Shown here piece after piece: positions 5,713 to 30,589 of a stretch of DNA of 44,474 bases (within the stretch, counting starts at the first letter, position 1; each line of letters opens with the position of its first letter). Made by a program: the position numbers and the translations under genes. The notes under the pieces were generated by a model that worked only from the letters and a program-made list of their open reading frames with translations, was not told the origin of the DNA and did no database searches. Origin of the DNA: Ilumatobacter nonamiensis YM16-303 (GTDB lineage: Bacteria > Actinomycetota > Acidimicrobiia > Acidimicrobiales > Ilumatobacteraceae); the NCBI RefSeq assembly GCF_000350145.1, contig NZ_BAOL01000037.1:1-44474 (forward strand), read 5' to 3'.

Positions 5713-5751
5713 CCCAACGGGTCTCGTCCGTGCGAGACGGCACCGAACGAC

Positions 5752-6633
5752 ATGATCAACTTCTTTCTTGACGCTTACGCATCGGACATCACGCGACGAG
5801 CGCTCGTCGGAGGTCTTCTCGCCGCCACGATGACATCGTTGATCGGGACATGGGTCGTGATCCGTGGGCTCGCGTTCTTCGGCGATGCGATGGCGCACGG
5901 TGTTCTGCCCGGGATCGCTCTCGCGGTGGTGTGGGGGTTCGATCTCACCCTGGGCGCCGCAGCCAGCGCGATCGTGATGGTGCTCGGGATCAATCTCGTC
6001 CACCGCACGACGAAGCTGTCCGACGACACCGGGATCGGATTGCTGTTCGTCGGCATGCTCGCATTGGGTGTCGTGATCATCAGCAAACAGAACTCGTTCG
6101 CGGGCGACCTGACCGGGTTCCTCTTCGGCGACGTCCTCGGCGTCCGCAACAACGAACTTCTCCTCGGCCTCGCAGCCCTCGTCATCACGATCGTCGGCGT
6201 CGTCGTCGGACACCGCTCGTTCCTCGCGCTCTCGATCGGTGCGGACAAGGCGGCGACACTCGGCCTCCGACCGGGGCTCGCACACGTGGCGATGCTGGTG
6301 TTGCTGTCACTGACGGTCGTCGCCAGCTTTCGTGTCGTCGGGACATTGCTCGTGTTCGGATTTCTCGTGGCGCCGCCCGCCACCGCTGTGCTGCTGGTGC
6401 GACGCGTCCCCACCGCCATGGTGGTCGCCGTCGGCTTCGGTTGGCTCGCCGTCGTGCTCGGGCTCGCGATCAGCTACCACGCGGACACCGCAGCGTCGGC
6501 GACCGTTGCCGGCATCGCCGTGGGGCAGTTCTTCGCCGTGCTGATCGTCTCCGAAGCGGTCCACGCGATCGGCCGGAGGCGACAGTCGGGTGCCGCCAGA
6601 AGCGATGCTCCGGTCGCGAGCGCTTCGACGTGA
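5752..6633 (+). CDS. znuB: Zinc ABC transporter permease
   Basis: A 293-residue ABC-3 family permease with about eight hydrophobic segments. Family landmarks include the LAFFGDAMAHGVLPGIA segment (about 40-56) and the FRVVGTLLVFGFLVAPPATA segment (about 204-223). It should form the membrane channel with ZnuC and receive zinc from ZnuA. It follows znuA by 39 bases in the same orientation and is presumably co-transcribed from the znuA promoter. The length is slightly above the usual 260-280 residues because of a polar C-terminal tail. Confidence 0.9.
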   Translation: MINFFLDAYASDITRRALVGGLLAATMTSLIGTWVVIRGLAFFGDAMAHGVLPGIALAVVWGFDLTLGAAASAIVMVLGINLVHRTTKLSDDTGIGLLFVGMLALGVVIISKQNSFAGDLTGFLFGDVLGVRNNELLLGLAALVITIVGVVVGHRSFLALSIGADKAATLGLRPGLAHVAMLVLLSLTVVASFRVVGTLLVFGFLVAPPATAVLLVRRVPTAMVVAVGFGWLAVVLGLAISYHADTAASATVAGIAVGQFFAVLIVSEAVHAIGRRRQSGAARSDAPVASAST

Positions 6634-6690
6634 CGTCGTTGGAACCGTCCGGCGCCCGGTGCGCACCACGTCTCCCGCACGTTCGATCGC

Positions 6691-6705
6691 TACGCTCTGC
6701 TCGCA
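6691..6705 (+). promoter_or_regulatory. Leaderless -10 box TACGCT for the GT2 gene
   Basis: TACGCT (6691-6696) is followed by 9 bases and the GTG at 6706, supporting that start and an independent promoter after znuB. Confidence 0.4.
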
Positions 6706-7689
6706 GTGTCCAGGCCCGTCAAGCTCATCATCCAGATTCCGTGCTGGAACGAAGAGGCAACCCTTCCTGAGACGCTCGCCGACCTCCCACGTGAGGTGCC
6801 CGGCGTCGATGTCGTCGAATGGCTCGTCATCGACGACGGCAGCGACGACCGAACGGTGGAGGTCGCCCGCGAGAACGGCGTGGACCATGTCGTGTCGCAT
6901 GCGCGGAACAAGGGGCTCGCCGCTGCGTTCATGACCGGGCTCGACGCGTGCCTCGCTGCGGGCGCCGACGTCATCGTCAACACCGATGCCGACAACCAGT
7001 ACCGGGGTGATTCCATCGTCGACCTCGTGGCCCCGGTGGTGACCGGTCGGGCGGACGTGGTCGTCGGAGAGCGGCCCATCGACAGCATCGACGACTTCTC
7101 GCGGTCGAAGAAGTTCCTGCAGCGCCTGGGAAGCAGGATCGTGCGACGTTTCTCGGGCACCGGCGTGAAGGACGCCGCGAGCGGATTCCGTGCGTACAAC
7201 CGTGACGCCGCGCTCCAGGTGCAGGTGTTCGGCCGGTACTCCTACACGATGGAGACGATCATCCAGGCCGGGTGGAACCGGTTGGCCGTGGAGTCGGTGC
7301 CGATCGAGGTCAACCCCAAGACCCGGGACTCCAAGCTGGTGCGCAGTGTGCCGCAGTACCTGTGGCGATCGGGTCAGGCGATCGTGCGGAGCTTCGCGCT
7401 CTACAAGCCGTTCCGGTTCTTCTTCTTCCTCGGCTGCGTGCCGCTGCTGATCGGAATGCTCCTCGTGCTGCGTTGGCTGCTCCTCTACGCGATCGAGGAC
7501 GAGTACCAGAGCCGAGTTCCGAGTCTGCTGACCGGATTCGGCTTCCTGGTCGTGGCGGTCCAGATCTGGGGGATCGCGTTCCTCGCGGATCTTCAGGCGG
7601 CCAACCGGCGCGTGCTCGAGGACCTGCGGGTGGCCGCCCGACGTCGGGAATTCGACGCGAACAGCTCCGATTCGTCACCGGACGACTGA
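6706..7689 (+). CDS. GT2 family glycosyltransferase, polyprenyl-phosphate sugar synthase type
   Basis: A 327-residue GT-A enzyme. The nucleotide-sugar site has IPCWNEE (11-17), VIDDGSDD (about 41-48) and the metal-binding DxD in NTDADNQY (D94, D96). The DAASGFRAYNRD block is typical of DPM1/DpgS-like enzymes. Two C-terminal hydrophobic segments (about 240-262 and 275-297) anchor it in the membrane. Such enzymes charge polyprenyl phosphate with a hexose for use by GT-C transferases, two of which lie nearby (57-1604 and 7675-9336). The tail overlaps the convergent membrane gene by 15 bases. The sugar is unknown. Confidence 0.88.
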   Translation: MSRPVKLIIQIPCWNEEATLPETLADLPREVPGVDVVEWLVIDDGSDDRTVEVARENGVDHVVSHARNKGLAAAFMTGLDACLAAGADVIVNTDADNQYRGDSIVDLVAPVVTGRADVVVGERPIDSIDDFSRSKKFLQRLGSRIVRRFSGTGVKDAASGFRAYNRDAALQVQVFGRYSYTMETIIQAGWNRLAVESVPIEVNPKTRDSKLVRSVPQYLWRSGQAIVRSFALYKPFRFFFFLGCVPLLIGMLLVLRWLLLYAIEDEYQSRVPSLLTGFGFLVVAVQIWGIAFLADLQAANRRVLEDLRVAARRREFDANSSDSSPDD

Positions 7690-9336
7690 CCGGTCCCACA
7701 GACTCATCCGGCCGAATCGGTCGGTCCAGAGGAGGAGCGCGCCGGCCTCGTCCAGTGCGGTGTCGCCGGGTGGAGCGAACACCAACGGGGACGATGCAAC
7801 CTCGGAGGAATCCTCCACCACCGTGAACTCCGACTCGGGCAGATACATCTGATAGAGCATCAGCCGGTTGGTGGAATTCGACGCGGCCGGAACGAGGAAG
7901 TCGACGGGTGCTCCCGATGCGAGTGGTCCATCGGCCAGTTCGGCCACGGCGTCGTGACCTCCGCGGCCCGACCATTCGCGATCGAGGATGTCCGCGGTGA
8001 AGGCGTCGCCGACGACGACCAGCGCAAACGCTGCGATGGTGCCGGCGAGGAGGGCGCGACTTCGGAGGAACGTGGTCGCCAGCAGGACAGCACCCACCGC
8101 AAGCGCGAGCACCGTGATACGGAACACGTCGATCCGGTCACTCGATCCACGGAACGGCTGGAGCCCGAGAATCATCGGCTCCAACCCGTTCGAACTCGCC
8201 AGCGCATCGTGGCGAGAGATGACCGTGACGGCCGCCGTCGCGATCGTCGCCGCTGCGATCCCCACGGCGGCGACCACCCGGCTTCGCGCCGTTGTCGCGG
8301 TCGCCGCCGTCACGAGCGTGGCGAGTCCGATCAGCAGCACCGGGGCGGTGACGACGTCCGAGTACCGGCCGTAGACCACCTGGTCGGCGCGCAGACGCCC
8401 GGCCATGAACGCGATCGACAGGCCGGCGCACGCGGCGACGGTGAGACCGACGAGGCGCGCATCGTCGCGCGTGGGCACGCGGGTCGTCGAACGGTCGGAC
8501 CCGGAGGCGAAGCTGTTGCGGGCGAGTACCCATCCTCCGACGCCGATCAGCCCCGCCGACGCCACGAGCTGGTACCAGGTCTGCCCGGCGAACGACAGGA
8601 GCAGCGCACCAGGATCGGTCAACCGATCGGCGACGGCGCCGGCGGAATTGTTCGATGTCGGGTTCCGCCACAGTTGTGCGACGATGAGCCGGGTCGCGAT
8701 CTCGACCGCGATCAGCCCGCCGACTGTGCACGCTGCGGCGATCGTGGCGTCGACGGCGGAGAGGGATCGCCGGCGGACGGCGAGCGCCATCACGACGAGC
8801 GCGATCACGACGAGCGGCAGGAGGCGGCTGTGCGCCCCGACCGCCGCGGCTGCTGCGAACCCGAGCAGGACGCCGCTCGATCGGGACGGCGCCGACCAGA
8901 ACCGGAGCAGCGCGAGCAGCGCCACGAGGAACATCGCGGCGGTGAGCGATTCGGACCAGACGAAGTCGGTGGTGAACAGGCGCGCGGGCGTCAGCGAGAC
9001 GATGACGGCGATCGCCGCACAGCCCCACGGGCCGAGCGATGTCAACCGTCGAGCCAACACGACCAGCAACAGGGCGGCCACTGCACCGAGCACGGCGTTG
9101 ACGACCAGCGCGAGTCGGAACACGATCGCCGGATCGCTGGTGAACCAGTGGATCGGCGCCAGGAGCGCGGCGTATGCCGGTCGCCACGTGCTGTGGTCGT
9201 GCATGGTCCATGACGTGCCACCGCCGAGGAACCGGGCCATCGCCAACTGAGCGGGTTCGTCGGGCCAGATGGAGTATTCGGTGCGCCCCCAGGACGCGCC
9301 GACCCGCACGAGGAACACAGTGACGGCGCTGAGCAA
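7675..9336 (-). CDS. GT-C type (GT39-like) membrane glycosyltransferase family protein
   Basis: A 553-residue polytopic protein. The first loop carries WPDEPAQLAMARFL (about 24-37), the acidic loop expected of the ArnT/PMT-like GT-C fold, followed by about ten hydrophobic segments and an outer C-terminal region. It probably uses a polyprenyl-phosphate sugar made by a GT2 enzyme such as its convergent neighbour. The TTG at 9336 is the first canonical start; the frame is open further upstream (PDEPTTWRRAGLL would precede it) without an ATG, GTG or TTG, so the true start is uncertain. It lies 28 bases after the PAP2-like gene and is likely co-transcribed with it. Confidence 0.72.
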   Translation of the reverse strand: MLSAVTVFLVRVGASWGRTEYSIWPDEPAQLAMARFLGGGTSWTMHDHSTWRPAYAALLAPIHWFTSDPAIVFRLALVVNAVLGAVAALLLVVLARRLTSLGPWGCAAIAVIVSLTPARLFTTDFVWSESLTAAMFLVALLALLRFWSAPSRSSGVLLGFAAAAAVGAHSRLLPLVVIALVVMALAVRRRSLSAVDATIAAACTVGGLIAVEIATRLIVAQLWRNPTSNNSAGAVADRLTDPGALLLSFAGQTWYQLVASAGLIGVGGWVLARNSFASGSDRSTTRVPTRDDARLVGLTVAACAGLSIAFMAGRLRADQVVYGRYSDVVTAPVLLIGLATLVTAATATTARSRVVAAVGIAAATIATAAVTVISRHDALASSNGLEPMILGLQPFRGSSDRIDVFRITVLALAVGAVLLATTFLRSRALLAGTIAAFALVVVGDAFTADILDREWSGRGGHDAVAELADGPLASGAPVDFLVPAASNSTNRLMLYQMYLPESEFTVVEDSSEVASSPLVFAPPGDTALDEAGALLLWTDRFGRMSLWDRSVVR

Positions 9337-9364
9337 CCCGGCACGTCGCCAGGTTGTCGGTTCG

Positions 9365-10447
9365 TCAGGCAGACGCCGACTCCAGCGACTCGGGCTCCTC
9401 GAGGGTGGGTTCGCCGGCAGGAACCGGAGCGGTCGCGTCCCAGCGTCGTTCGATGCGATTCCAGATCAGGAACGAGACTCCCACGGTCGCCCATCCTGCC
9501 AAGGCATCGGCGAAGTAGTGCTCTCCGAAGTACATCAGTGCGACCGCCATGCTGAACGGATAGAGCAATGCCAGGTACCGCAGCCCGACCGGACGGATCT
9601 TCGGCCAGAAGAAGACCACGACGAACAGCGCGTACGCAGAGTGGAGCGATGGCATCGCAGCGACCTCGTTCGCCCAGTCGCGTCCCACGTCCCACGCCTC
9701 GACGAAACTCTCGAGCCCGATGTGTCGCCAGCCGTTGCCGGTCGGACGCCGGACCGGGGGGAGTGCGTCGAAGGCGTACCCGGATCCGTTGACACCACCC
9801 GCCGCCATCCACGGGGGCGCCGTCGGGAACAGGATGAAGCCGACGCACCCGATCAGGATCACGGTGGCGAAGCGCCGCATGTATCGGATCCACTGGTCGC
9901 GATTCGTGAGCCAGAGCACGGCCATCACCAGCGGCGGCAACACGAAGTGCGAGTAGTACACGAACGCCGCGATCACGTCGTACCACCGAACGGTTCCGAC
10001 CGGAGCCAGGAAACGCTCCTGAAGCCAGACCACGCCGTCGGTGCCGAAGAACAGGAATCGATCGATGTTGCGCACCGATTCGACCTGGACGGGCATCCCC
10101 AGACCGTCCGCGATGCCGCGGCTCTCGTCGTAGGCGAGCCACATCGCCACGAAGAACCCGAGGTCACGCGCGGTGCGCCACCACTCGTGCGCCGGTCGAC
10201 CGACGCTGGCGACGCACAGGAAGATCGCGAACGACCAGAGCACCGAGATGCGATCGATGATGATCCCGTTCTCCAAGAACCACCAGACGTACACCGATGT
10301 GTAGAGGCTGATCAGACACCAGCGGATCATGCGCCATTCGACGCCGAAGGCCCGCAGCACGGCGCTGAACGCCCCCACGACTGACGCCAAGGCGATCGAG
10401 TACCAGAGGACGCGCCACAGCCCTCCCGTCTCGAGCGCCACCACCAT
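9365..10447 (-). CDS. PAP2 superfamily membrane protein, Aur1/inositolphosphotransferase-like
   Basis: A 360-residue polytopic protein. Motifs are LFPTAPPWM (about 206-214), PSLHS (266-270, with catalytic-type His269) and GEHYFAD (308-314, His310 and Asp314). These match the PAP2_3 branch that includes fungal Aur1 and mycobacterial inositol-phosphate transferases, which move a phospho-head group from one lipid to another or dephosphorylate lipid phosphates. At least six hydrophobic segments surround the motifs. It sits upstream of a GT-C protein in the same orientation, suggesting glycolipid or phosphoinositide metabolism. A leaderless promoter precedes ATG 10447. Transferase versus phosphatase activity cannot be decided from sequence. 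Confidence 0.82.
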   Translation of the reverse strand: MVVALETGGLWRVLWYSIALASVVGAFSAVLRAFGVEWRMIRWCLISLYTSVYVWWFLENGIIIDRISVLWSFAIFLCVASVGRPAHEWWRTARDLGFFVAMWLAYDESRGIADGLGMPVQVESVRNIDRFLFFGTDGVVWLQERFLAPVGTVRWYDVIAAFVYYSHFVLPPLVMAVLWLTNRDQWIRYMRRFATVILIGCVGFILFPTAPPWMAAGGVNGSGYAFDALPPVRRPTGNGWRHIGLESFVEAWDVGRDWANEVAAMPSLHSAYALFVVVFFWPKIRPVGLRYLALLYPFSMAVALMYFGEHYFADALAGWATVGVSFLIWNRIERRWDATAPVPAGEPTLEEPESLESASA

Positions 10448-10460
10448 CGGCAGGACGCTA
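10448..10460 (-). promoter_or_regulatory. Leaderless -10 box TAGCGT for the PAP2-like gene
   Basis: On the minus strand TAGCGT (10460-10455) is followed by 7 bases and the ATG at 10447. TAGCGT recurs in the same position before the potassium channel gene and dxs. Confidence 0.45.
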
Positions 10461-10514
10461 CTCGCGCGTCACTCTCCGTTCACCTCGATGCAGTCGGCGC
10501 TCGTCTCGCCGGTG

Positions 10515-11105
10515 TCAACCGATGCGGTCGAGAAACGCGCGCGATCGCTCGACGACCAGCGCCGTGGCGTCCGCGTCGTGGGACGGGAGCGAGCTGTCGA
10601 CGAAGAGGTGATGGCTTCCGGGGTACGTGTACAGCTCGCCGATGGTCGATCCGACGGACTCGACGAGCTCGCGTGCGGCGTCGGCGTCGCCCTCGTGAGC
10701 GAAGAACTCGTCGTCGTCCATGCCGTGGATCTGGACGGGGAGGGAATCGGGCCAGGGCCCGAACGCCCACTCGCCGGTGATGGGGATGCACGCCTCGTAC
10801 AGCAACGCACCGCGAGCACCCGGCCGCGTCTGGGCCAGGCGCTGGGCGGTCATCACACCCAGCGAGATCCCCGCGTACACCAACTCCGGCGGCAGTTCAC
10901 CGAGGGCATCCTCCGTGCGCTCGCGCACGGTGTCATCGCCGATGTCGTTCTTGATCGCGAACCCGTCCTCCAGGCTCGACGCGACGGCCCCGGCGTAGAG
11001 ATCAGGGGTGTGGACGCGGTGGGTTCCCCCGGCGAGGCGCTCGGCGAACTCGCGCACACCGTCGGTCAACCCCAACACGTGGTGGAACAGGACGACCTCG
11101 GCCAT
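10515..11105 (-). CDS. Dienelactone hydrolase family alpha/beta hydrolase
   Basis: A 196-residue single-domain alpha/beta hydrolase. The nucleophile elbow is GISLG with Ser81 (DLH itself uses Cys), an acidic cluster HGMDDDE (about 128-134) supplies the acid, and GSHHLF (about 163-168) supplies His. It starts 9 bases after the coxM stop on the same strand, so it is probably the last gene of the cox operon. Coupling suggests it hydrolyses an ester or lactone made upstream or downstream of the molybdenum hydroxylase. Substrate unknown. Confidence 0.8.
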   Translation of the reverse strand: MAEVVLFHHVLGLTDGVREFAERLAGGTHRVHTPDLYAGAVASSLEDGFAIKNDIGDDTVRERTEDALGELPPELVYAGISLGVMTAQRLAQTRPGARGALLYEACIPITGEWAFGPWPDSLPVQIHGMDDDEFFAHEGDADAARELVESVGSTIGELYTYPGSHHLFVDSSLPSHDADATALVVERSRAFLDRIG

Positions 11106-11114
11106 GTGCTGCCC

Positions 11115-11942
11115 TTATGAGGAGCTGGCTTCTTCGAGGGCGCGGCGGGTGAGGACGCGGGCGAGGTGTTCGCGGTACTCGATGCTCGCGTTCAGGTCGG
11201 CGGTCGGGTCGCACCCCTCCGGCGCCTGCGCCGCCGCGTCCTCGATCGATGCTCCGCTCGACAGCGCCTCGGACACGCCGCTGGCGAGAATCGGGACCGA
11301 ACCCATGTTCACCAGGCCGATGCCGGAATCACCGTTGCGGCGCCAGGCGGCCACACCGACGATCGCCCAGTCCTGCGCACGACGGTTGAACTTCTGGAAG
11401 CTCCACCCGGCACCGTTCATCTTCGGCACGCGGATCTCGGTGAGCAGCTCGTCGGCCGCGAGGGCGGTCGTGAGGAAGCCCTGGTAGAAGTCGCCCGCAG
11501 CGATCTCCCGCGTGCCGTTCGGACCCTGCGCCACGTACGTCGCACCGAGGGCCAGCGTGGTCGCCGGCAGATCGGACGCCGAGTCGCTGTGGCAGATCGA
11601 GCCGCCGATGGTGCCGCGATGGCGGACCTGCGGGTCGCCGACGTGGGAGGCGGCATGGGCGAGCAACGGGACGTGCTGTGCGAGCAGGTCGGAGTTCTCG
11701 ACGTCCATGTGGCGTGTCATCGCGCCGATCGCGATCACGTCGCCGTCCTCGCGAATGTAGGACAGGTCGGTGAGACGGCCGATGTCGATCAGCACGGTCG
11801 GCTGCGCGAGGCGCAGCTTCATCAGCGGCAGGAGGCTGTGCCCTCCCGCGAGGAACTTGGACTCGTCGCCGTGTTGTCCGATCAGGCTGATGGCCTCCTC
11901 GGCGGACTCGGCGCGGGCGTAGTCGAATGCTGCGGGGATCAC
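11115..11942 (-). CDS. coxM: FAD-binding medium subunit of form II CO-dehydrogenase-like molybdenum hydroxylase (CoxM)
   Basis: A 275-residue flavoprotein subunit of the xanthine dehydrogenase/CODH family. AGGHSLLPLMKLRL (about 32-45) and TIGGSICHSDSASDLP (about 110-125) are the two classic FAD pyrophosphate-binding motifs. It should pass electrons from the 2Fe-2S centres of CoxS to an acceptor. The GTG at 11942 overlaps the coxL stop by 4 bases. A longer upstream reading frame exists but lies inside coxL and is rejected. Gene order S-L-M is conserved with other form II clusters. Confidence 0.88.
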   Translation of the reverse strand: MIPAAFDYARAESAEEAISLIGQHGDESKFLAGGHSLLPLMKLRLAQPTVLIDIGRLTDLSYIREDGDVIAIGAMTRHMDVENSDLLAQHVPLLAHAASHVGDPQVRHRGTIGGSICHSDSASDLPATTLALGATYVAQGPNGTREIAAGDFYQGFLTTALAADELLTEIRVPKMNGAGWSFQKFNRRAQDWAIVGVAAWRRNGDSGIGLVNMGSVPILASGVSEALSSGASIEDAAAQAPEGCDPTADLNASIEYREHLARVLTRRALEEASSS

Positions 11943-14386
11943 TGGTTCTCCTGAGAGTTGGGGGCTGCTTGGGCTTCGTGAATGGCGGTCCAGACCTTGA
12001 CGGGACTGGCGGGCATCTGGATGTCGCGCACGCCGAGCCCGGACAGGGCATCGACGATGGCGTTCATCACACACGGGGCGGCGCCGATGGTGCCGGCCTC
12101 GCCGACCCCCTTGACGCCGAGTGGATTGGTCGGTGACGGCGTGATGCTCTCGCCGGTGGTGATCGGTGGAACGTCGCTGGCGGCAGGCACCAGGTATTCG
12201 GCGAGCCCCGACGTCTGGAGGTTGCCGTCGCTGTCGTACACGGCTTCCTCGTACAACGCCTGGGCCAAGCCCTGGATCACGCCGCCGTGGACCTGGCCGT
12301 CGACGATCAGCGGGTTGACCTTGTTGCCGCAGTCGTCGACGGCGACGTACTGGAGGACGTCGGTGTGGCCGGTTTCGGTGTCGACCTCGACCACGCAGAT
12401 GTGTGTGCCGAAGGGCCACGAGAAGTTCGGCGGGTCGTAGGTGACCTGGACCTCGAGGTTCGGTTCGACGTCGTCGGGGAGGTCGTGGGCCGTGAACGCC
12501 TCGAAGGCGATCGCAGCGAGCGGCATCTCCTTGTCGGGCGAACCCGCCACGCTGAACACGCCGCCGGAGAACTCGAGGTCGTCCTCGTTGGCCTCCATCT
12601 GGTGAGCGGCGATCTTGCGCGCCTTGTCGATCACCTTGTCGCAGGCCATCCCGATCGCCACGCCACCGACCGGCAGCGAACGCGAACCGTACGTGTCGAG
12701 GCCGAGCGGTGCGATCGCGGTGTCGGAGTGCAGCACGTCGACATCGGCCGGATCGACCCCGAACTTGTCGGCGGCGATCATCGACCAGGCGGTCTCGTGA
12801 CCCTGCCCGTGCGGCGCGGTGCCGGTGACCACCTGGATCTTCGAGGTCGGCAGGACCCGCACGGTGGCCGATTCCCAGCCGCCGGCCGAGTAGTTCAGCG
12901 AGGCCAGCACCCGTGACGGGGCGAGGCCGCACATCTCGAAGTACGTCGAGACGCCGATTCCGAGTCGCTTCGTGGCGCCCTCGACGTTCTGGCTTCGCTG
13001 GCGTTCGCGGAGCACCGCGTAGTCGACCATTCCCTCGGCGACCGTGGCCGCCTTGTCGTGGTCACCCGAGTCGTAGACGAGACCGGTGTAGGCCTCGTAC
13101 GGGAATGACTCCTTGGGGATGAAGTTGCGGCGACGGAGTTCGAGCGGATCGATGTCCATCTTGCGTGCCAGCGCGTCCATCGCGTGCTCGATCGCGTAGG
13201 TCGCCTCGGGTCGACCGGCGCCGCGATAGGCGTCGGTCGGCGTCATCGTCGTGAACACGGAGGTGCACGAGAAGTCGAACGCCTTCGGGATCTCGTAGAC
13301 ACCGCCGTAGAGGAACGCCCCGAGCAGCGGGACGCCCGGCGTGACCAGCTGGAGGTAGGCCCCCATGTCGCCGATGAGGCGGACCCGGAGGCCGGTGATC
13401 TTGCCGTTCTCGTCGGCGGCCAGTTCGATGTCCTGGATCTGCGCACGACCGTGGATCGTGGCCTGCGCGTTCTCGCCGCGCTCCTCGTTCCAGCGGACCG
13501 GTACCTTGAGGGTGCGCGCGAGCTGCACGCAGAGCAGCTCCTCGGCGTACACGTTGAGCTTGGAGCCGAAGCCGCCACCGACCGCCGGGCACACGACCCG
13601 CATCTGCTGCTCGGGGATCCCGAGCGTGAGTGCGGTCATCACCTTGAGGATGTGCGGCACCTGGGTCGCCGAGTACAGCGTCATGTCGCCGCCGTACGGC
13701 TGGGGAATCGCCACGACTGCGCGTGGCTCCATCGCCATCGGGATCAGGCGCTGCTGGACGTAGCGTTCCTTGACGACGTGGGCGGACTCGTTCATCGCCT
13801 TCTGGCAGTCGCCCTCGTTCTCCTCGATCACGAGCGGCCACGTGTACGACACGTTCGTGCCGATCTCGTCGTGGATCACGACGTCGTCGGCGAGCGCCTG
13901 TTCGAGATCGATCACGGCGGGGAGCGGTTCGTACTCGACGTCGATCGCCTCCAGCGCGTCACGCGCGATCGCGTCCGAGGTGGCGAGGACGCACGCCACG
14001 CCGTCGCCCACGTACGTCGCCTTCGTGGCGGCGAGCGGGAAGTGCGCCGGGTTCTTCATGTCGTCGGTGACGGGCCACGCGCAGGGCATCGGCGCGGCCC
14101 ACTGATCGGCCAGGTCGGCTCCGCTGTACGCATGCAGCACGCCGTCCATCGCGAGCGCGCCGGACACGTCGACCGAGACGATCTTGGCGTGGGCGTACGG
14201 GCTGCGCAGCACCGCGAGGTGCAACGCGCCGGGAACCTTCATGTCGTTCGTGAAGACCGCTTCCCCCGTGAGCAGCGCCGGGTCCTCCTTGCGGAGCAGG
14301 CGCTTGCCGAGGACCCCGTTGCCGGCGGCGATCGAACCCTCGCTGGCGGCCTCGTTGTCGGTGACCAGGTCGTCGATGATCGTCAT
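11939..14386 (-). CDS. coxL: Form II CoxL-like molybdopterin-binding large subunit
   Basis: An 815-residue Mo-MCD subunit of the xanthine oxidase family. AVGGGFGSK (about 268-276) is a cofactor-binding glycine motif and GVGEAGT carries the catalytic-type Glu (about 763). The active-site loop reads AYRGAGR (386-392), which defines form II; true aerobic CO dehydrogenases have AYRCSFR with the copper-binding Cys. CO oxidation is therefore not supported, and an aromatic, heterocyclic or aldehyde substrate is more likely. ATG 14386 is preceded by GGGGGT. It overlaps coxM by 4 bases and lies 37 bases downstream of coxS. The C-terminal DLH-like gene may process the product. Confidence 0.9.
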   Translation of the reverse strand: MTIIDDLVTDNEAASEGSIAAGNGVLGKRLLRKEDPALLTGEAVFTNDMKVPGALHLAVLRSPYAHAKIVSVDVSGALAMDGVLHAYSGADLADQWAAPMPCAWPVTDDMKNPAHFPLAATKATYVGDGVACVLATSDAIARDALEAIDVEYEPLPAVIDLEQALADDVVIHDEIGTNVSYTWPLVIEENEGDCQKAMNESAHVVKERYVQQRLIPMAMEPRAVVAIPQPYGGDMTLYSATQVPHILKVMTALTLGIPEQQMRVVCPAVGGGFGSKLNVYAEELLCVQLARTLKVPVRWNEERGENAQATIHGRAQIQDIELAADENGKITGLRVRLIGDMGAYLQLVTPGVPLLGAFLYGGVYEIPKAFDFSCTSVFTTMTPTDAYRGAGRPEATYAIEHAMDALARKMDIDPLELRRRNFIPKESFPYEAYTGLVYDSGDHDKAATVAEGMVDYAVLRERQRSQNVEGATKRLGIGVSTYFEMCGLAPSRVLASLNYSAGGWESATVRVLPTSKIQVVTGTAPHGQGHETAWSMIAADKFGVDPADVDVLHSDTAIAPLGLDTYGSRSLPVGGVAIGMACDKVIDKARKIAAHQMEANEDDLEFSGGVFSVAGSPDKEMPLAAIAFEAFTAHDLPDDVEPNLEVQVTYDPPNFSWPFGTHICVVEVDTETGHTDVLQYVAVDDCGNKVNPLIVDGQVHGGVIQGLAQALYEEAVYDSDGNLQTSGLAEYLVPAASDVPPITTGESITPSPTNPLGVKGVGEAGTIGAAPCVMNAIVDALSGLGVRDIQMPASPVKVWTAIHEAQAAPNSQENQ

Positions 14387-14423: not shown

Positions 14424-14882
14424 TCAGGCGCTCGCCGCAGCGAGGACCGACTTGACGATGTTGTGATAGCCCGTGCAGCGGCACAGGTTGCCTTCGAGGC
14501 CGATCCGGACTTCCTGCTCGGTCGGGTTCGGGTTCTCCTCGAGGAGACTCGTGGCGGCCATGACCATCCCCGGGGTGCAGTAGCCGCACTGCAGACCGTG
14601 GTTCTCCATGAACGCCTGCTGCATCGGATGCAGTGTCCCATCGGCGTCGGCCATCCCCTCGATCGTGGTGATCTCCTGCCCGTCCGCCTGGGCGGCGAGT
14701 ACGGTGCAGCTCTTCACGGCCTCACCGTTCAGGTGGAGGGAACAGGCGCCGCACGATGATGTGTCGCAGCCGATGTTGGTTCCGGTCAATCCGGCGTGTT
14801 CGCGGACGTAGTGGACGAGCAGCGTGCGTGCCTCGACGTCGTGCGTGTGTTCTTCGCCGTTGATCGTGATGGTGACGTCCAC
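14424..14882 (-). CDS. coxS: 2Fe-2S small subunit of the CoxSLM molybdenum hydroxylase
   Basis: A 152-residue protein from the chosen GTG. Four Cys of a plant-type 2Fe-2S site (C39, C44, C47, C59) are followed by the all-helical second 2Fe-2S domain with CGYC (C99, C102) and CRC (C134, C136), all intact. It transfers electrons from the molybdenum site in CoxL to FAD in CoxM. GTG 14882 follows GGGGGT by 5 bases; a TTG at 14894 would add four residues. It is the first gene of the minus-strand operon coxS-coxL-coxM-hydrolase. Confidence 0.92.
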
Positions 14883-15009
14883 GAAGACCCCCAAGTGGTG
14901 TGTGGTGTGAAGTGTTGCCCGATGAAGCCGCGTCTGTGACGCGCGTCCCCATCATGCCTCATGAGTGACCGCCACGCGAACAGGAGCGCACCACCACCCC
15001 ACCTCCGAG

Positions 15010-23864: not shown

Positions 23865-24314
23865 ATGGCCGACATTCGCTTCGAGGTCCGACATCGGTTC
23901 GCGGCCCCGCCCCGACGGGTGTGGGACGAGCTGGTCGATTGGCAGGCCCACGAGCGGTGGATCCCGCTCACGAAGATGCAGGTCGACCCCGGTGATCCGA
24001 CCGAAGTGGGACATGAGCTGACCGCACGAACGGGCGTCGGTCGGGTCGCGTTGCCGGACCGCATGCGAGTGACGGCGTGTGAGTGGGACGATGGCGCCGC
24101 CGCAGGAGAATGTGTCGTCGAGAAACTCGGACCGGTGTTGCGCGGCCGAGCCGGGTTCACCGTCGGCGCTGACCCGGAGGGCTGCGTGGTGGACTGGTTC
24201 GAAGACGTCACGGTTCCGTACGTCCCCGGTTTCGTCGCTCCGCTCGGCGGGTGGATCGGCGCGTTCTTCTTCCGTCAGGGGATGCGGAGGCTCGAGCGGG
24301 TCATTCGTCGCTGA
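23865..24314 (+). CDS. SRPBCC (polyketide cyclase/START-like) family protein
   Basis: A 149-residue protein with the SRPBCC outline: an N-terminal strand and helix (RFEVRHRFAAPPRRVWDELVDW), alternating strands, and a long C-terminal helix (about 125-149). These proteins bind hydrophobic ligands in a deep cavity. Function cannot be stated; the family includes cyclases, lipid-binding and stress proteins. It is divergent from the potassium channel and its tail overlaps the convergent ABC permease by 14 bases. The ATG follows a GGGGG stretch closely. Confidence 0.8.
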   Translation: MADIRFEVRHRFAAPPRRVWDELVDWQAHERWIPLTKMQVDPGDPTEVGHELTARTGVGRVALPDRMRVTACEWDDGAAAGECVVEKLGPVLRGRAGFTVGADPEGCVVDWFEDVTVPYVPGFVAPLGGWIGAFFFRQGMRRLERVIRR

Positions 24315-25122
24315 GCTTGTCGAGGCCGCGGCGCGCGAACACCATCGTCAGGGCCACGATGACGACGAGCGCGAGCAGCCCCGTCCAGGTCTCGTTCCAG
24401 GTCATCGGCTGATCGAGGAAGCCGAGCCTGGCGAGGCCGATCACCTGGTTGAACGGGTTGATCCGTGCGACGTGCTCGAGCCACCCCTCCATGACGGACA
24501 GCGGCGTCTGCGCCTCGGTGAGGAAGATCAGCAGGAAGAACGTGAGCTGCATGATCGCCGCGGCGCGCATGTCGCGGAAGCGGTAGGCGAGCCCGAGGCC
24601 CCAACCGGTGCCGATCGACGCGATCCCGAGACCGGCGAGGTACAGCGGGATCAGCCCGGACGGGCCGTGGGTGAGTCGGGCACCGAACAGGGACCCGACC
24701 GCGAACACCACCGTCGTGACGATGAACGAGCGTACGAGCGCCGAGAGGAGCGGGCCGACGATCAGTGACGCGCGCGGTGCGGGCGTGAGCCGGAGTCGGT
24801 CGTAGAACCCGCCTTCGAGGTCGCGGATCGTGGCGAACCCGATGCCGATCCCTGCGAACCCGGACCCCATGATCACCCCGAGCGGGAGGAACCAGTTGAT
24901 CGAGCGGTCGGTCGGGAAACCCGGGATCTGGGTGATCGCGAAGAAGGTCCCCGCGAACGCGATCGTCTGGAAGATCGGCATCACCAGCGACGGCACGAAG
25001 GCCGAGGGCAGCCGCACGATGTTCACCATGCTGCGCTTCATCAACCCGACCGAGGCCGGGAACGTGCGCGTGTTCGCGACCGAGCGTTCCGGCAGCCCTG
25101 TCGTCTCGTCGACGATGGTCAT
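24301..25122 (-). CDS. ABC-2 type exporter permease (DrrB-like), second subunit
   Basis: A 273-residue permease with six hydrophobic segments of the ABC2_membrane type; the DLEGGFYDRLRLTPAPR loop (about 94-110) is the typical DrrB amphipathic region. It overlaps the preceding permease by 4 bases, so the three-gene unit encodes one ATPase and two distinct permeases, likely a heterodimeric exporter pore. The substrate is unknown; DrrAB-type systems export drugs, lipids or polysaccharides. Confidence 0.85.
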   Translation of the reverse strand: MTIVDETTGLPERSVANTRTFPASVGLMKRSMVNIVRLPSAFVPSLVMPIFQTIAFAGTFFAITQIPGFPTDRSINWFLPLGVIMGSGFAGIGIGFATIRDLEGGFYDRLRLTPAPRASLIVGPLLSALVRSFIVTTVVFAVGSLFGARLTHGPSGLIPLYLAGLGIASIGTGWGLGLAYRFRDMRAAAIMQLTFFLLIFLTEAQTPLSVMEGWLEHVARINPFNQVIGLARLGFLDQPMTWNETWTGLLALVVIVALTMVFARRGLDKLSDE

Positions 25123-25952
25123 CGCGCCCCCAATCGCCGTTTCAGTGTTCGGAGCGACAGCGTCACGGTCAACACCGCCAGAATCGCCGGGATCACCACG
25201 GCGCGGAACGCTGCGGACCAGGTGAATCCCTCGATCGTGAGGTCGCGGAACCCCTCGACGAGGTACGAGATCGGATTGATGTCGGCGAGCCGGGCGTAGA
25301 TTCCGCTCATCGTCTCGCGCGGGAAGAACGCGGACGAGAAGAACAGCGCGATGAACAACAGCGGAAACGCTCCCTGCACCGCTTCGGACGAGCCGGTGCG
25401 GATGGCCATCGCCGACATGAGTGCGCCGACGGCAAGGGCGAGAACGGTGCCACCGATGGCCATCGTGATCACGCCGGGAACCCCGCCCTTGATCGTCAGG
25501 CCGAAGGGAAGCAGCACCGCGATGAACACGACGGTCTGAAGGAACCCGTACGCCATGCCACCCGCCATCCGGCCGACGATGATTCCGGAGCGGGTGGACG
25601 GTGAACTGAGGAGACGGTCGAAGAACCCGTTCTCGATGTCGGTCGCGAGGGCGGTCGCGCCGACGGTGGATCCGAACAGGATCCCCTGCACGATCGCCCC
25701 GGCGAGCGCGAAGTCGAGATACGAATCGACCTCCGGGAAGCCGGGGATCGCGGTGGCCCGCGAGAACGACGCGGTACCGAGCGCGGCGAAGAACAGCGGG
25801 AAGATCATCGACGGGACGACGAGCGCGGGCTGGCGCCAGAGTGCCAGGATCGAGCGCTTCGACATCGCCCACGTCTGGGCCACGTTGGATTGATGGAGTT
25901 CCGGTCGGGTGCGCGGAGCGGGGCCGGCCGTCGTGGTGGGTGCCGTCGTCAT
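25119..25952 (-). CDS. ABC-2 type exporter permease (DrrB-like), first subunit
   Basis: A 277-residue permease with six hydrophobic segments. The DIENGFFDRLLSSPSTR loop and FPLLFIALFFSSAFFPRETM near the C-terminal half are typical of DrrB. ATG 25952 overlaps the ATPase stop by 4 bases and its own stop overlaps the next permease by 4. It is clearly homologous to the following permease (shared DxExGFxDRL motif) but divergent, consistent with an old duplication giving a heterodimer. Confidence 0.87.
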   Translation of the reverse strand: MTTAPTTTAGPAPRTRPELHQSNVAQTWAMSKRSILALWRQPALVVPSMIFPLFFAALGTASFSRATAIPGFPEVDSYLDFALAGAIVQGILFGSTVGATALATDIENGFFDRLLSSPSTRSGIIVGRMAGGMAYGFLQTVVFIAVLLPFGLTIKGGVPGVITMAIGGTVLALAVGALMSAMAIRTGSSEAVQGAFPLLFIALFFSSAFFPRETMSGIYARLADINPISYLVEGFRDLTIEGFTWSAAFRAVVIPAILAVLTVTLSLRTLKRRLGAR

Positions 25953-26920
25953 GCGTCGGCGCCTTCGAGCCGATAGCCGGTCGCCTCCGCGAACACGTCG
26001 TCCAGGCTCGGTTCGTGCAGCTCCAGGTTGCGGACGGTGATGCCGGCGTCGTCGAGGGTGCGGATCACGTTCGACACGGCGCTCGGACCGTCGGTCAATC
26101 CCACACCGAGCGTTCCCTCCGGGCTCGGCCGGAGTTCGCCGAATCCGGCGAGCAGCGTGGTGGCCGGCTCCGTGGCGGCCGCGTCGACGCTCACGAACAG
26201 CGTCGGGCTCCCGACCTCGGCCTTCAACTCGGACGGTCGGCCCTTGCGGACGATCACCCCGTGGTCGATGATCGCGATCCGCTCGGTGAGTTGGTCGGCC
26301 TCCTCGAGGTACTGCGTCGTCAGCATCACGGTGGTGCCGTCGTTGTTCAGGCGGCGGATCTCCTCCCAGAGCGAGATCCTGCTCATCGGGTCGAGGCCCG
26401 TGGTCGGCTCGTCGAGGAACAGCACCGTCGGCTCGTGGATCAGCGACAGCGCGAGGTCGAGGCGGCGCCGCATTCCGCCCGAGTAGGTACCGACCCGGCG
26501 ATTGCCGGCGGCGGTGAGCCCGACGCGTTCGAGGAGTTCCCCCGCCTTGGTCGCGTGGGTCGATTTCGGGAGCCCGTAGAGCACGGCCTGCAGGTGGAGC
26601 AGTTCGCTCCCGGTCATCAGCGGGTCGATCGCGGCATCCTGGAGCGCGACGCCGATGTTCCTGCGAACGTCGTTCGCCTGCTCGACGACGTCGAACCCGG
26701 CGACCCGGCCGATGCCGCCGGTCGGCCGCAGCAGCGTCGTCAGCATCCGCACGGTGGTCGACTTGCCCGCACCGTTCGGCCCCAGGAACCCGAAGATCTC
26801 GCCCTGCTGGATCTGCAGATCGACCCCGTCGACGGCCTTGACCTGCTCGTCGCCGGTTCCGAAGGTGCGCTGCAGACCGATCGCTTCGATCGGCAACGAG
26901 TTGGTGGACGTGGTGGGCAT
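25949..26920 (-). CDS. ABC exporter ATP-binding protein, DrrA-like
   Basis: A 323-residue ABC ATPase. Walker A is GPNGAGKS (47-54), the signature YSGGM (146-150) and Walker B VLFLDEP (about 166-172), followed by LTTQYLEEAD with the switch region (Gln where many ABC ATPases have His, normal in DrrA relatives). A C-terminal extension of about 90 residues is typical of the DrrA group and helps couple to DrrB. It is first in a three-gene operon with two permeases. Confidence 0.9.
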   Translation of the reverse strand: MPTTSTNSLPIEAIGLQRTFGTGDEQVKAVDGVDLQIQQGEIFGFLGPNGAGKSTTVRMLTTLLRPTGGIGRVAGFDVVEQANDVRRNIGVALQDAAIDPLMTGSELLHLQAVLYGLPKSTHATKAGELLERVGLTAAGNRRVGTYSGGMRRRLDLALSLIHEPTVLFLDEPTTGLDPMSRISLWEEIRRLNNDGTTVMLTTQYLEEADQLTERIAIIDHGVIVRKGRPSELKAEVGSPTLFVSVDAAATEPATTLLAGFGELRPSPEGTLGVGLTDGPSAVSNVIRTLDDAGITVRNLELHEPSLDDVFAEATGYRLEGADA

Positions 26921-27697: not shown

Positions 27698-28252
27698 TCA
27701 GGCGCTGCGGAGGATCTGGCGAACCAGCGGCTCGTAGTGCTCGAGCGGGTTGCTCGTGTAGTTCGCGTCGAACGCGGTCTGGTCGAACTCACCGGTGAAC
27801 TCGGCGGTGCGATCGAAGTGCGGGCTGTCGCGGTACTGCTCGCGGGCCTGGCCGTCGAGGCCGATGTAGTCCCAGAAGTAGTACCCCTGGAACTCGCCGT
27901 GGTGCTTCACCATGAAGTAGTTCGCCTCGGACACGAACGGCTTGACGATGCCCGCAGCGATGTCGGGATGGTTGTACGGGCTGAGCGTGTCGCCGATGTC
28001 GTGGATCAGCGCGCAGAACACGTACTCGTCGTCCTTCCCGGCCTTCTCGGCGCGCGTGGCCGTCTGCAAGCTGTGTTCGAGCCGGTCGACGGGGAAGCCG
28101 CCGTGGTCGGCCTTCAGGTCGCGGAGCAGCGACAGGACCCGGTCGGCGACCATCGACTGCGTGACCTCCAGCTGGGGGATGATCTTCGCCCAGTCCTCGG
28201 CCGTCGACTCCTCGAACGTCGTGAACGTGGCGCGCTGTGCGGTGTCGGTCAT
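27698..28252 (-). CDS. HD-domain protein, PhnZ/MIOX-like mixed-valent diiron oxygenase candidate
   Basis: A 184-residue protein. Putative metal ligands are His60 in LEHSLQTA, His84-Asp85 in LIHDIGD, a His at 95 or 117-118 (NHPD, KHHGEF) and Asp157 in EFDQTAFD. The EHSLQxAxxA...ALIHDIG spacing resembles PhnZ and TmpB, and the MVKHHGEF to EFD tail resembles myo-inositol oxygenase. Those enzymes use a diiron centre and oxygen to cleave C-C or C-P bonds, unlike nucleotide-hydrolysing HD proteins. ATG 28252 overlaps the CoxL-type gene stop by 4 bases, so the two are co-translated. The HD fold is secure; oxygenase activity is inferred, and a phosphohydrolase is the alternative. Confidence 0.78.
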   Translation of the reverse strand: MTDTAQRATFTTFEESTAEDWAKIIPQLEVTQSMVADRVLSLLRDLKADHGGFPVDRLEHSLQTATRAEKAGKDDEYVFCALIHDIGDTLSPYNHPDIAAGIVKPFVSEANYFMVKHHGEFQGYYFWDYIGLDGQAREQYRDSPHFDRTAEFTGEFDQTAFDANYTSNPLEHYEPLVRQILRSA

Positions 28253-30549
28253 GATTCGTTCCCTGCCTGTTGGATGGCTTGCCAGACTCGCTCGCTCGTG
28301 GCGGGCATGTCGATGTGGGTGACGCCGAGGTGGCTGACGGCGTCGCACACCGCCGACTGCACCGCGGGGGTGGAGCCGATCGTGCCCGACTCGCCGATGC
28401 CCTTCGCCCCGAGCGGGTTGACGAACGTCGGCGTCTCCATGTGGACGACCTCGAAGCTCGGGAGCTCGGTCGCCGAGATCATGCCGTAGTCGGCGAGGTT
28501 CGACGTGACCGGGTTGCCGTCCTCGTCGTAGCGGACCTCCTCGATCAGCGCCTGAGCCGTGCCCTGGGCGATGCCGCCGTGGATCTGACCGTCGAGCAGC
28601 AGCGGGTTGATCACTCGGCCGGCGTCGTCGCAGGCGACCTGGCGCAGGTGCTTGACCTGGCCGGTGCTCGTGTCGACCTCGACCACCGACACGTGCGCCC
28701 CGAACGGGAACGTCGCCATGTCGGTCGTGAACAGCGTGTCGATCGTCAGCTCGTCGCCCTGCTCGCGGGAGGCGACGGCGAGTTCGGCCCAGCCCTTGGC
28801 CACGGCCGGGGTCCCAGCGACGTGGAAGGCGCCGTTGTCCTTGTCGAGGACGATGTCGGCTTCGTCGGCCTCGAGCAGCTGCGCGGCGAGCTTCTTCGCC
28901 TTGTCGACCAGCTCGATCGCGCCCTGGTGCACAGCGGCTCCGCCCTGCTGGAGTGAGCGTGATCCCATCGTGCCGCCGCCACTCGGGACGAGGTCGGTGT
29001 CGCCCCAGACGAGGGTGATCCGGTCCATCGGGATGCCCGTCTCCTCCTCGGCGAGCATCGACCACGCGGTGTCGTGGCCCTGCCCGTGCGGGGAGGTGCC
29101 GGTGTAGACCGTGGCGGACCCGTCGTCGTGGACTTCGATCTTCGCGGCTTCCTGCTTCGGGTCGACACCGCCGGTGATCTCGACGTAGACGCTGACGCCG
29201 ATTCCGAGTTGCTTGTCGGCACCCGATTCGCGACGCGCCGCCTGTTCGGCACGCAGGTCGGAGTAGCCGGCGGTGTCGAGTGCCTTGTCGAGGGCGGTCT
29301 CGAAGTCGCCGACGTCGTACACCTGGCCGACCGCCGTGGTGTGCGGTTCCATGAACTTGGCGATGAGGTTCTGGCGCCGGACCTCGGCGGGATCCTTGCC
29401 GATCTCGTGGGCGAAGAGGTCCATCGCGCGCTCGATCGCAGCCGTCGCCTCGGGACGACCGGCGCCCCGGTACGCCGTGGTCGGCGTCGTGTTGGTCACG
29501 ACCGAGGTCGTACGGACTTCCATGTTCGGGATGTCGTACACGCCCGACGCCATGGGACGGGTCATGAACGGGGCGAGGATGGTGCCCATCCCGACGAACG
29601 CACCGGAGTCCTGGATCGCATGGAGTTGGTAGTGCGTGACCTTGCCCTCACGGGTGCCGCCGATCGTGACGTACTGCAGCTGTGCGCGGCCGTGGCCGAG
29701 GTTCATCATCGACTCGCTGCGCGTCTCGCGCCAGCGGACCGGTCGGCCCAGGTCCTTCGACAGCGATCCGAGCAGCAGTTCCTCCGCGTAGGAGTCGATC
29801 TTCGCGCCGAATCCGCCGCCGACATCCGGTGTGATCAGGTGGATCGCGTCGGCATCTCCGCCGTTCGCAGCGGTGAACGCGTCCTTCGCTCCTTGAGCGC
29901 CTTGGGTCGAGATCCACTGGACGAGGCGACCGTTGTCCCAGGTGGCTGCCGATGCGCGCACTTCGAGCGGGCACGGAGCGACGCGCTGGTTGAGGAACCG
30001 GCCGGTGACGGTGACCTCGCAGTCGGCGAAGAACTCCTCGGCCGACGAGTTCTCGGGCATCCCGAGCGCGGTCGTGTCGAACACGGCGTTGCTCCCTGCT
30101 CCTTCGTAGATCAGCGTCTCGGATGCGAGCGCGTCCTCGAGGTCGATCAGGGCGGGCAGGAACTCGTAGTCGACGAACACCATCTCGGCGGCGTCGGTCG
30201 CCTGCTGGAGGGTTTCGGCGACGACGACCGCGACGGGTTCGCCGACATGGCGGACCTTGTCGCCGGCGAGCAGTGTGCGCGCTGCGGCGGGGTTGAACGG
30301 TGACGGAACCGGTTCGAGGCCGAGGGTCTCGGCGGTGTGAACGGCGAGAACACCGGGCATTTCGAGCGCGCTCTCGATGTCGATGGATTCGATCGTTCCG
30401 TGGGCGACGGTCGAACGGACGAAGGCTGCCTGTACGGCTCCCGCCAGGCGCGGATCGTCGACATCGTCGGCGTAGACGCCGCCCGTCGTGAGGAACTTCG
30501 GATCTTCCTTGCGCTGGACTCGAGTGCCCAGGATGCTGCCACCAGCCAC
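28249..30549 (-). CDS. Orphan form II CoxL-like molybdenum hydroxylase large subunit
   Basis: A 766-residue Mo-MCD subunit of the xanthine oxidase family. The glycine motif PDVGGGFGAK is at 241-250, the active-site loop AYRGAGR at 359-365 (form II) and the catalytic-type Glu in GIGESGT at about 720. No CoxS or CoxM gene adjoins it, unlike the cluster at 11115-14882; it may borrow those subunits. GTG 30549 is preceded by AAGGGG at 5 bases. A palindrome lies 25-40 bases upstream. Its only operon partner is the HD oxygenase-like gene, which overlaps it by 4 bases. The substrate is unknown, and CO is unlikely without the Cys-containing loop. Confidence 0.88.
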   Translation of the reverse strand: MAGGSILGTRVQRKEDPKFLTTGGVYADDVDDPRLAGAVQAAFVRSTVAHGTIESIDIESALEMPGVLAVHTAETLGLEPVPSPFNPAAARTLLAGDKVRHVGEPVAVVVAETLQQATDAAEMVFVDYEFLPALIDLEDALASETLIYEGAGSNAVFDTTALGMPENSSAEEFFADCEVTVTGRFLNQRVAPCPLEVRASAATWDNGRLVQWISTQGAQGAKDAFTAANGGDADAIHLITPDVGGGFGAKIDSYAEELLLGSLSKDLGRPVRWRETRSESMMNLGHGRAQLQYVTIGGTREGKVTHYQLHAIQDSGAFVGMGTILAPFMTRPMASGVYDIPNMEVRTTSVVTNTTPTTAYRGAGRPEATAAIERAMDLFAHEIGKDPAEVRRQNLIAKFMEPHTTAVGQVYDVGDFETALDKALDTAGYSDLRAEQAARRESGADKQLGIGVSVYVEITGGVDPKQEAAKIEVHDDGSATVYTGTSPHGQGHDTAWSMLAEEETGIPMDRITLVWGDTDLVPSGGGTMGSRSLQQGGAAVHQGAIELVDKAKKLAAQLLEADEADIVLDKDNGAFHVAGTPAVAKGWAELAVASREQGDELTIDTLFTTDMATFPFGAHVSVVEVDTSTGQVKHLRQVACDDAGRVINPLLLDGQIHGGIAQGTAQALIEEVRYDEDGNPVTSNLADYGMISATELPSFEVVHMETPTFVNPLGAKGIGESGTIGSTPAVQSAVCDAVSHLGVTHIDMPATSERVWQAIQQAGNES

Positions 30550-30573: not shown

Positions 30574-30589
30574 CGGACCGAACGGTCCG
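30574..30589. promoter_or_regulatory. Palindrome CGGACCG-AA-CGGTCCG upstream of the orphan CoxL gene
   Basis: Perfect 7-base arms around AA, 25 bases upstream of the GTG start. The GACCGnnCGGTC core is of the kind bound by TetR-family repressors. No regulator gene is adjacent, so the binder is unknown. The rest of 30550-30740 shows no gene. Confidence 0.6.

Follow-up and report, generated by a model that had tools for sequence, protein, structure and literature searches.

A 44,474-nucleotide (nt) contig of Ilumatobacter nonamiensis YM16-303 (NZ_BAOL01000037.1, referred to over its whole length as the window) carries on its minus strand a molybdenum hydroxylase gene, coxL1, directly followed by a gene for a small HD-domain protein. 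The explanation that we favor as probable is that this pair joins two enzymes separate by origin in what is apparently one transcript, namely an ordinary form II molybdenum hydroxylase and a stand-alone diiron oxygenase. A common substrate for the two enzymes would not be needed to explain the data. The coxL1 gene (28249–30549) encodes a molybdopterin-binding large subunit of the form II type with 766 amino acids (aa) and opens with GTG at 30549; the HD gene (27698–28252) opens with ATG at 28252 and encodes a 184-aa protein of the PhnZ/TmpB/MIOX type, a predicted diiron oxygenase. The stop of the first and the start of the second share the 4 nt ATGA at 28249–28252. Both the GTG start and this overlap had been given in a preliminary description of the window, and both were recovered here. 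Co-expression of the two genes is likely. The spacing is −4 nt in three of the nine complete pairs (L054 and L055 among them) and 9–60 nt in the six others.

On balance, the structural model and the alignments place the HD protein among the oxygenases, with a pocket unlike that of the phosphonate enzymes. Pfam reports only a generic HD domain above cut-off, and no specific Pfam or NCBIfam model exceeds its cut-off for this protein; the NCBIfam phosphonate-oxygenase models TIGR03276, NF049941 and NF052439 give 35.9, 30.8 and 22.8 bits against cut-offs of 214.6, 300 and 300. Searches of the PDB by phmmer and by a profile of 104 HD relatives both return PhnZ and TmpB first. The AlphaFold2 model, built from 97 aligned sequences, has a mean predicted local distance difference test score of 95.8 and a predicted template modeling score of 0.90, and a Foldseek search with it fills ranks 1–10 with PhnZ or TmpB chains. 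The VIA-align Z value is 18.0 for PhnZ, 17.0 for TmpB, and 12.6 and 11.8 for MIOX, with the other listed chains at 8.6 or below. The PhnZ/MIOX-like assignment made in the preliminary description is borne out by fold and ligands, and the structural comparison groups the protein with the PhnZ, TmpB and MIOX oxygenases and not with single-metal nucleotide phosphohydrolases. A general HD hydrolase was considered as well and set aside; the oxygenase chains score far higher than the remaining rows of the list, a ranking that on its own would not exclude it. It is also conceivable that the protein is no oxygenase, and instead a phosphohydrolase or a repair or regulatory protein for the molybdenum enzyme, as the purely generic Pfam name and an arginine (R57) resembling that of phosphatases would allow. 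However, the ligand set sides with the oxygenases, as does the fold (the highest phosphatase-type rows, PPX/GppA, exopolyphosphatase, reach a Z of 8.1 versus 18.0 for PhnZ), and we regard such a function as very unlikely.

The metal ligands were examined in an alignment of 104 rows, consisting of the window protein and 103 called HD genes of 175–215 aa. Residues H60, H84, D85, H95, H118 and D157, a set of four histidines and two aspartates, are invariant in all 104 rows. Passages of a review give H...HD...H...H...D as the ligand motif of the HD oxygenases and name MIOX, PhnZ and TmpB as such enzymes (PMC8177086); the order in the window protein fits this motif. NCBIfam holds one further HD oxygenase, the hydroxymethylphosphonate enzyme PhnZ1. 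The preliminary list of ligands was correct for His60, His84-Asp85, Asp157 and, of the two candidates His117 and His118, for the latter, and it overlooked His95. The mononuclear phosphohydrolase pattern H...HD...D without extra ligands was not found, the HD clade having two extra invariant histidines. When a profile of the HD clade was compared by hhalign to seven PhnZ-like proteins (Phn-HD), a probability of 98.1 was obtained, with H60, H84, D85, H95 and D157 matched to conserved histidines and aspartates. H118 is taken as the remaining histidine ligand because its distance from H95, 23 residues, equals that between H74 and H97 in Phn-HD.

The pocket sets this protein apart from the characterized enzymes. 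Where Phn-HD has an invariant His55 and an invariant Lys101, the HD clade has Asp88 (102 of 104 rows) and Gln122 (97 of 97 in alignment A3). In PhnZ, H62 and K108 bind the phosphonate. Because Asp88 and Gln122 replace this His/Lys pair, the substrate of the window protein is probably not a phosphonate. Asp88 also lies where MIOX has a substrate-binding lysine. The YxxE gate of PhnZ and TmpB is absent; across the 104 rows, Y, F or H predominates at position 50, and 103 rows have F or Y at position 53. A phosphonate substrate by analogy to PhnZ is not our default reading, as the protein has neither the gate nor the His/Lys pair; a better Phn-HD candidate lies elsewhere in the genome. HD proteins of this kind form a clade of their own, set apart by the missing gate and by Asp88 and Gln122.

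Compared to its structural neighbors, the window protein is closest in build to PhnZ, the 2-amino-1-hydroxyethylphosphonate oxygenase (4n71, 4mln, 4mlm, 4n6w), with a common fold over 152–155 residues at Z 17–18, the same H...HD...H...H...D ligand order and a likewise small single-domain architecture. It differs from PhnZ in its low identity (22–23%), in lacking the YxxE gate, in having Asp88 and Gln122 in place of the pair that is invariant in the seven Phn-HD proteins, and in the segment between its HD pair and the third histidine, which is 12 residues shorter than in the Phn-HD protein L202. The fold is shared with TmpB (6npa, Z 17.0) as well, although the NCBIfam TmpB model gives only 30.8 bits against a cut-off of 300, and the gene next to the window HD gene encodes a molybdenum subunit. 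MIOX (2huo, 2ibn) shares the fold at Z 12.6 and 11.8 with 16–18% identity. According to passages of the review, MIOX also lacks the YxxE gate, like the window protein (PMC8177086).

The sequence of CoxL1 marks it as an ordinary form II molybdenum hydroxylase subunit and not as one of the Cu/Mo carbon monoxide (CO) dehydrogenase type. It carries the Pfam domains of molybdopterin hydroxylases and matches form II CoxL and other aerobic molybdenum hydroxylase large subunits (8uem, 1ffu, 1n5w) over the full length, including AYRGAGR and GIGES. In NCBIfam it stays below every listed cut-off, the best model being glyceraldehyde dehydrogenase alpha (NF041018; 608 bits versus 790). The active-site motif of form I Mo-Cu CO dehydrogenase is AYXCSFR; this motif is not in CoxL1, which has the form II motif AYRGAGR instead. 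Among the nine complete paired CoxL proteins, AYRGAGR is present in eight and PYRGAGR in the ninth, and GIGES, which fits the GxGE motif, in all nine.

The preliminary description had called CoxL1 an orphan with no CoxS or CoxM beside it. It is true that no gene for either lies immediately next to coxL1 in the window; the word orphan does not hold, because the synteny of relatives places coxS and coxM in the same cluster as coxL1, and an orphan CoxL was rejected on this ground. Form II CoxL systems cluster with coxS and coxM, as here, with the difference that in this genome the partners are displaced by about 13 kb. On the same strand, downstream of coxL1, lie coxS for the [2Fe-2S] small subunit (14424–14894), coxL2 for a second form II large subunit (11939–14386) and coxM for the medium subunit that binds flavin adenine dinucleotide (11115–11942). 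The order in the family is mazG-eno-ftsB-coxL-[ABC ATPase and two permeases]-coxS-(coxL2)-coxM; an alternative in relatives has coxL followed directly by coxS-coxM and genes resembling coxD, coxE and xdhC. CoxL usually stands in one of these arrangements in the family's unpaired genomes, and it does so in further families of the order too. By tblastn, a same-strand CoxS was found downstream of CoxL1 in 14 of the 20 family loci that lack the pair, in 7 of 11 paired loci and in 7 of 8 loci from other families; the remaining loci show no CoxS within the fetched stretch, and contig ends hide coxS in some of them. While coxL2 stands between coxS and coxM in the window, this is not so in several relatives: among the 20 unpaired loci, 7 have the two genes side by side, as has the paired locus L059, and CoxL1 is therefore the large subunit with which they would work in these cases. 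L182 shows coxL1-coxS-coxL2-coxM in immediate succession. The genome holds 8 large, 6 small and 5 medium subunits of the Cox type, with pieces of one gene counted once.

The window block thus reads coxL1, HD, ABC genes, Trk-like, HAD and membrane genes, more insertions, then coxS, coxL2 and coxM. The ABC genes, all on the minus strand, comprise a DrrA-like transporter ATPase (25949–26920), which is a frequent neighbor of coxL1 in the family, and two permease genes (24301–25122 and 25119–25883) named by eye and by clustering. It should be mentioned that the gene calls come from a codon-usage caller and not from an annotation, that mazG, eno, CoxD/E, XdhC, Trk, HAD and the MarR- and TctC-like genes mentioned below were named by eye, and that the name ftsB rests on Pfam DivIC. 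Clusters of the L182 type (L182 at 4917–11373, also L183, L184, L188, L189 and L196) have two full-length large subunits with one small and one medium subunit, in the case of L182 within a 1.7-Mb genome; the two large-subunit enzymes of such clusters may share one electron-transfer pair. A further CoxL of about 50% identity occurs on another contig of the I. nonamiensis genome (L071, G000:C241, 2875–10653), followed first by two other genes and then, as in the window, by an ABC ATPase and two permease-like genes; no coxS or coxM match was found on this 15.6-kb contig.

The coxL1-HD pair is not confined to this genome. A neighborhood search found CoxL beside HD in 11 of 30 fetched HD loci (flanks up to 1.5 kb), in eight genomes of the same genus, two of genus g17 and one of genus g16, thus in three genera of one family. 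In one of them (G110) the contig ends within the CoxL gene, and in L058 (G099:C25, 10283–12558) the paired CoxL is split over two frames, by an assembly error or in a broken gene. The adjacency of coxL1 and HD is intact in all 11 loci, while coxL no longer has ftsB as its neighbor in 4 of 10 and HD no longer has the ABC gene in 8 of 11. A tree built from 41 picked rows groups the 11 paired HD proteins in a single clade, with a support of 98 in the Shimodaira-Hasegawa-like approximate likelihood-ratio test. Within the genus, the HD gene was found in 8 of the 10 genomes examined; G088 has a CoxL match that breaks off at residue 650 of 766 and lacks a match to this HD, and in G121 neither close gene was found.

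Obligate co-occurrence was not observed, each gene being found without the other in draft genomes. Of 200 genomes drawn from the family, HD was matched at E 1e-3 in 147 and CoxL at E 1e-240 in 164, the latter being an upper figure for the orthologue, since this threshold also lets in some 55% paralogues. In six listed genomes of genus g2, CoxL is present and HD gives no match below E 5e-4; in G014, G026, G031, G060 and G069, HD is present at E ≤ 2e-63 and CoxL is not matched at E 1e-240. Beyond the family sample, HD relatives occur in at least 563 of 593 pattern-matched stretches, of which 80 were kept, mainly from Acidimicrobiia and Proteobacteria. All 80 contain HD by tblastn; the gene caller missed it in L094, L103 and L104, which leaves 77 loci. 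By our own gene calls, 43 of these 77 have no same-strand neighbor of HD within 60 nt.

The enzymes encoded next to HD genes of this kind vary from lineage to lineage. A class II aldolase is encoded in 10 of the 77 loci, its gene in L152 overlapping HD by 4 nt, and a few marine Acidimicrobiia loci contain a VOC protein, an alpha/beta hydrolase or a Rieske/desaturase protein. A substrate was sought from these neighbors (aldolase, VOC, hydrolase, Rieske), and no single pathway emerged. CoxL-like matches are found in 2 of the 80 loci, L093 and L168, and L094, whose HD is 71% identical, has no CoxL on its 9.4-kb contig. In L168 (Variovorax sp. YR216, 6175–14141), HD is followed by a class II aldolase, MarR-like and TctC-like genes and then by a xanthine-dehydrogenase-like large subunit, coxM and coxS, which is a separate case of such an HD protein being encoded near a molybdenum enzyme. 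In L082 (G009:C14), a CoxL-like gene and coxS lie three to four genes from HD on the opposite strand. L089, on plasmid NZ_CP115240.1 (4791–10748), has a TauD/TfdA dioxygenase, HD, a choline ABC binding protein, choline dehydrogenase and aldehyde dehydrogenase one after another.

At least three oxygenase-type HD proteins are present in the I. nonamiensis genome. The second, in L070 (G000:C379, 26–1797), is 41% identical to the window protein, has the same ligand set and the same Asp/Gln, and is encoded directly behind an iron/2-oxoglutarate enzyme resembling TmpA and butyrobetaine dioxygenase (best NCBIfam model TmpA, 314 bits versus 400). Judged from these similarities, L070 resembles a TmpA/TmpB pair, with the Asp/Gln pocket in its HD partner. 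The third, at G000:C116:8020–8574 (L205), is a PhnZ-like Phn-HD protein with 208 bits, just under the cut-off of 214.6.

These distributions bear on the two-step conversion put forward in the preliminary description, hydroxylation by the molybdenum enzyme followed by cleavage by the diiron enzyme. As we specify it, CoxL1 would hydroxylate its substrate with oxygen taken from water, and the hydroxylated carbon would then be cleaved with O2 by the HD enzyme. Such a pathway could be favored by the 4-nt overlap in three of nine complete pairs, by the adjacency in 11 of 11 loci while the flanks changed, and by the place of the 41%-identical HD protein behind a TmpA-like enzyme. However, each gene is found without the other, and in most fetched relatives HD is elsewhere, often alone. 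Furthermore, molybdenum hydroxylases normally oxidize sp2 carbons and aldehydes, a chemistry that yields no sp3 alpha-hydroxy substrate of the sort known HD oxygenases use. A hydroxylase combined with an HD oxygenase is nonetheless a known design, as described in passages of the review (PMC8177086). Because each gene occurs alone, and HD is often solitary or beside other genes, the proposal is weakened; we retain it as an unlikely account, and it is similarly improbable that it constitutes a molybdenum version of the PhnY/PhnZ and TmpA/TmpB tandems. A pairing with no functional link at all, in which HD landed behind a well-kept gene and stays there for expression only, comes closer to an even chance while falling somewhat short of it. 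The single clade of paired HD proteins, the frequent solitary HD genes (43 of 77) and the loose spacing from −4 to +60 nt agree with such hitch-hiking, whereas the survival of the linkage through rearrangements on both sides in three genera speaks against it.

Upstream of coxL1, a palindrome, CGGACCGTTCGGTCCG, with 7-nt arms and a 2-nt spacer lies at 30574–30589, 41 nt before the start codon; the preliminary description called it an operator, and it is a possible candidate for one. Such palindromes occur in the window at chance frequency (7 observed versus a Markov mean of 8.5, range 3–14), but a given 90-nt stretch holds one in only about 1% of cases. The coxL1 palindrome was not found in 14 other upstream regions examined. 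In the close relative L051, GAGCCGTCCGGCTC stands at the aligned place, 44 nt before the start, with the same spacer, 6-nt arms and two differences that are paired across the arms; L052 and L053 have only imperfect dyads there.

Several observations weigh against two separate enzymes, one of them an oxygenase, as the explanation for the pair. The adjacency kept despite changed flanks may point to selection for togetherness, although all the pairs belong to one clade, and a dyad at the same place in the window and in L051 would fit joint regulation. The CoxL tree (39 picked rows) also needs one change, with the paired rows unsupported (52). The genomes lacking one gene are drafts, 77–96% complete, and the CoxL search scored about five candidates per genome. 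For the HD protein, hhalign leaves a gap near H118, so the match of this residue comes from its spacing only. R57, present in 102 of 104 rows, bears a loose likeness to the arginine that precedes the first ligand histidine in HD phosphatases; passages of the review mention this arginine and do not give its exact spacing (PMC8177086).

Taking these points into account, we still consider two enzymes separate by origin to be the best explanation. The HD gene would have entered downstream of coxL1 in the common ancestor of the three genera, most simply in a single event, and would then have been kept; the family is probably Ilumatobacteraceae. CoxL1 would pass electrons through CoxS and CoxM of the same stretched cluster, the cluster being defined by synteny and the subunit assembly presumed. 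The predicted HD oxygenase would bind iron via H60, H84, D85, H95, H118 and D157 and act on a small substrate by cleaving a C-C or C-X bond adjacent to a hydroxyl group; we infer its iron, its use of O2 and its mixed-valent state from PhnZ, TmpB and MIOX.

Among the titles listed in literature searches, none was on a pair of HD oxygenase and CoxL. It is unlikely that the two form a new tandem, with a form II molybdenum hydroxylase supplying the substrate of HD diiron oxygenases that belong to a new clade with Asp88 and Gln122; if this were true, a molybdenum hydroxylase would replace the iron/2-oxoglutarate hydroxylase of the PhnY/PhnZ and TmpA/TmpB pathways. For annotation, the window teaches that the partners of a seemingly orphan subunit can be encoded at a distance of 13 kb when the cluster has been stretched. 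The HD clade is common, and its member in the window stands above no specific Pfam or NCBIfam cut-off, which makes its substrate a directly testable matter.

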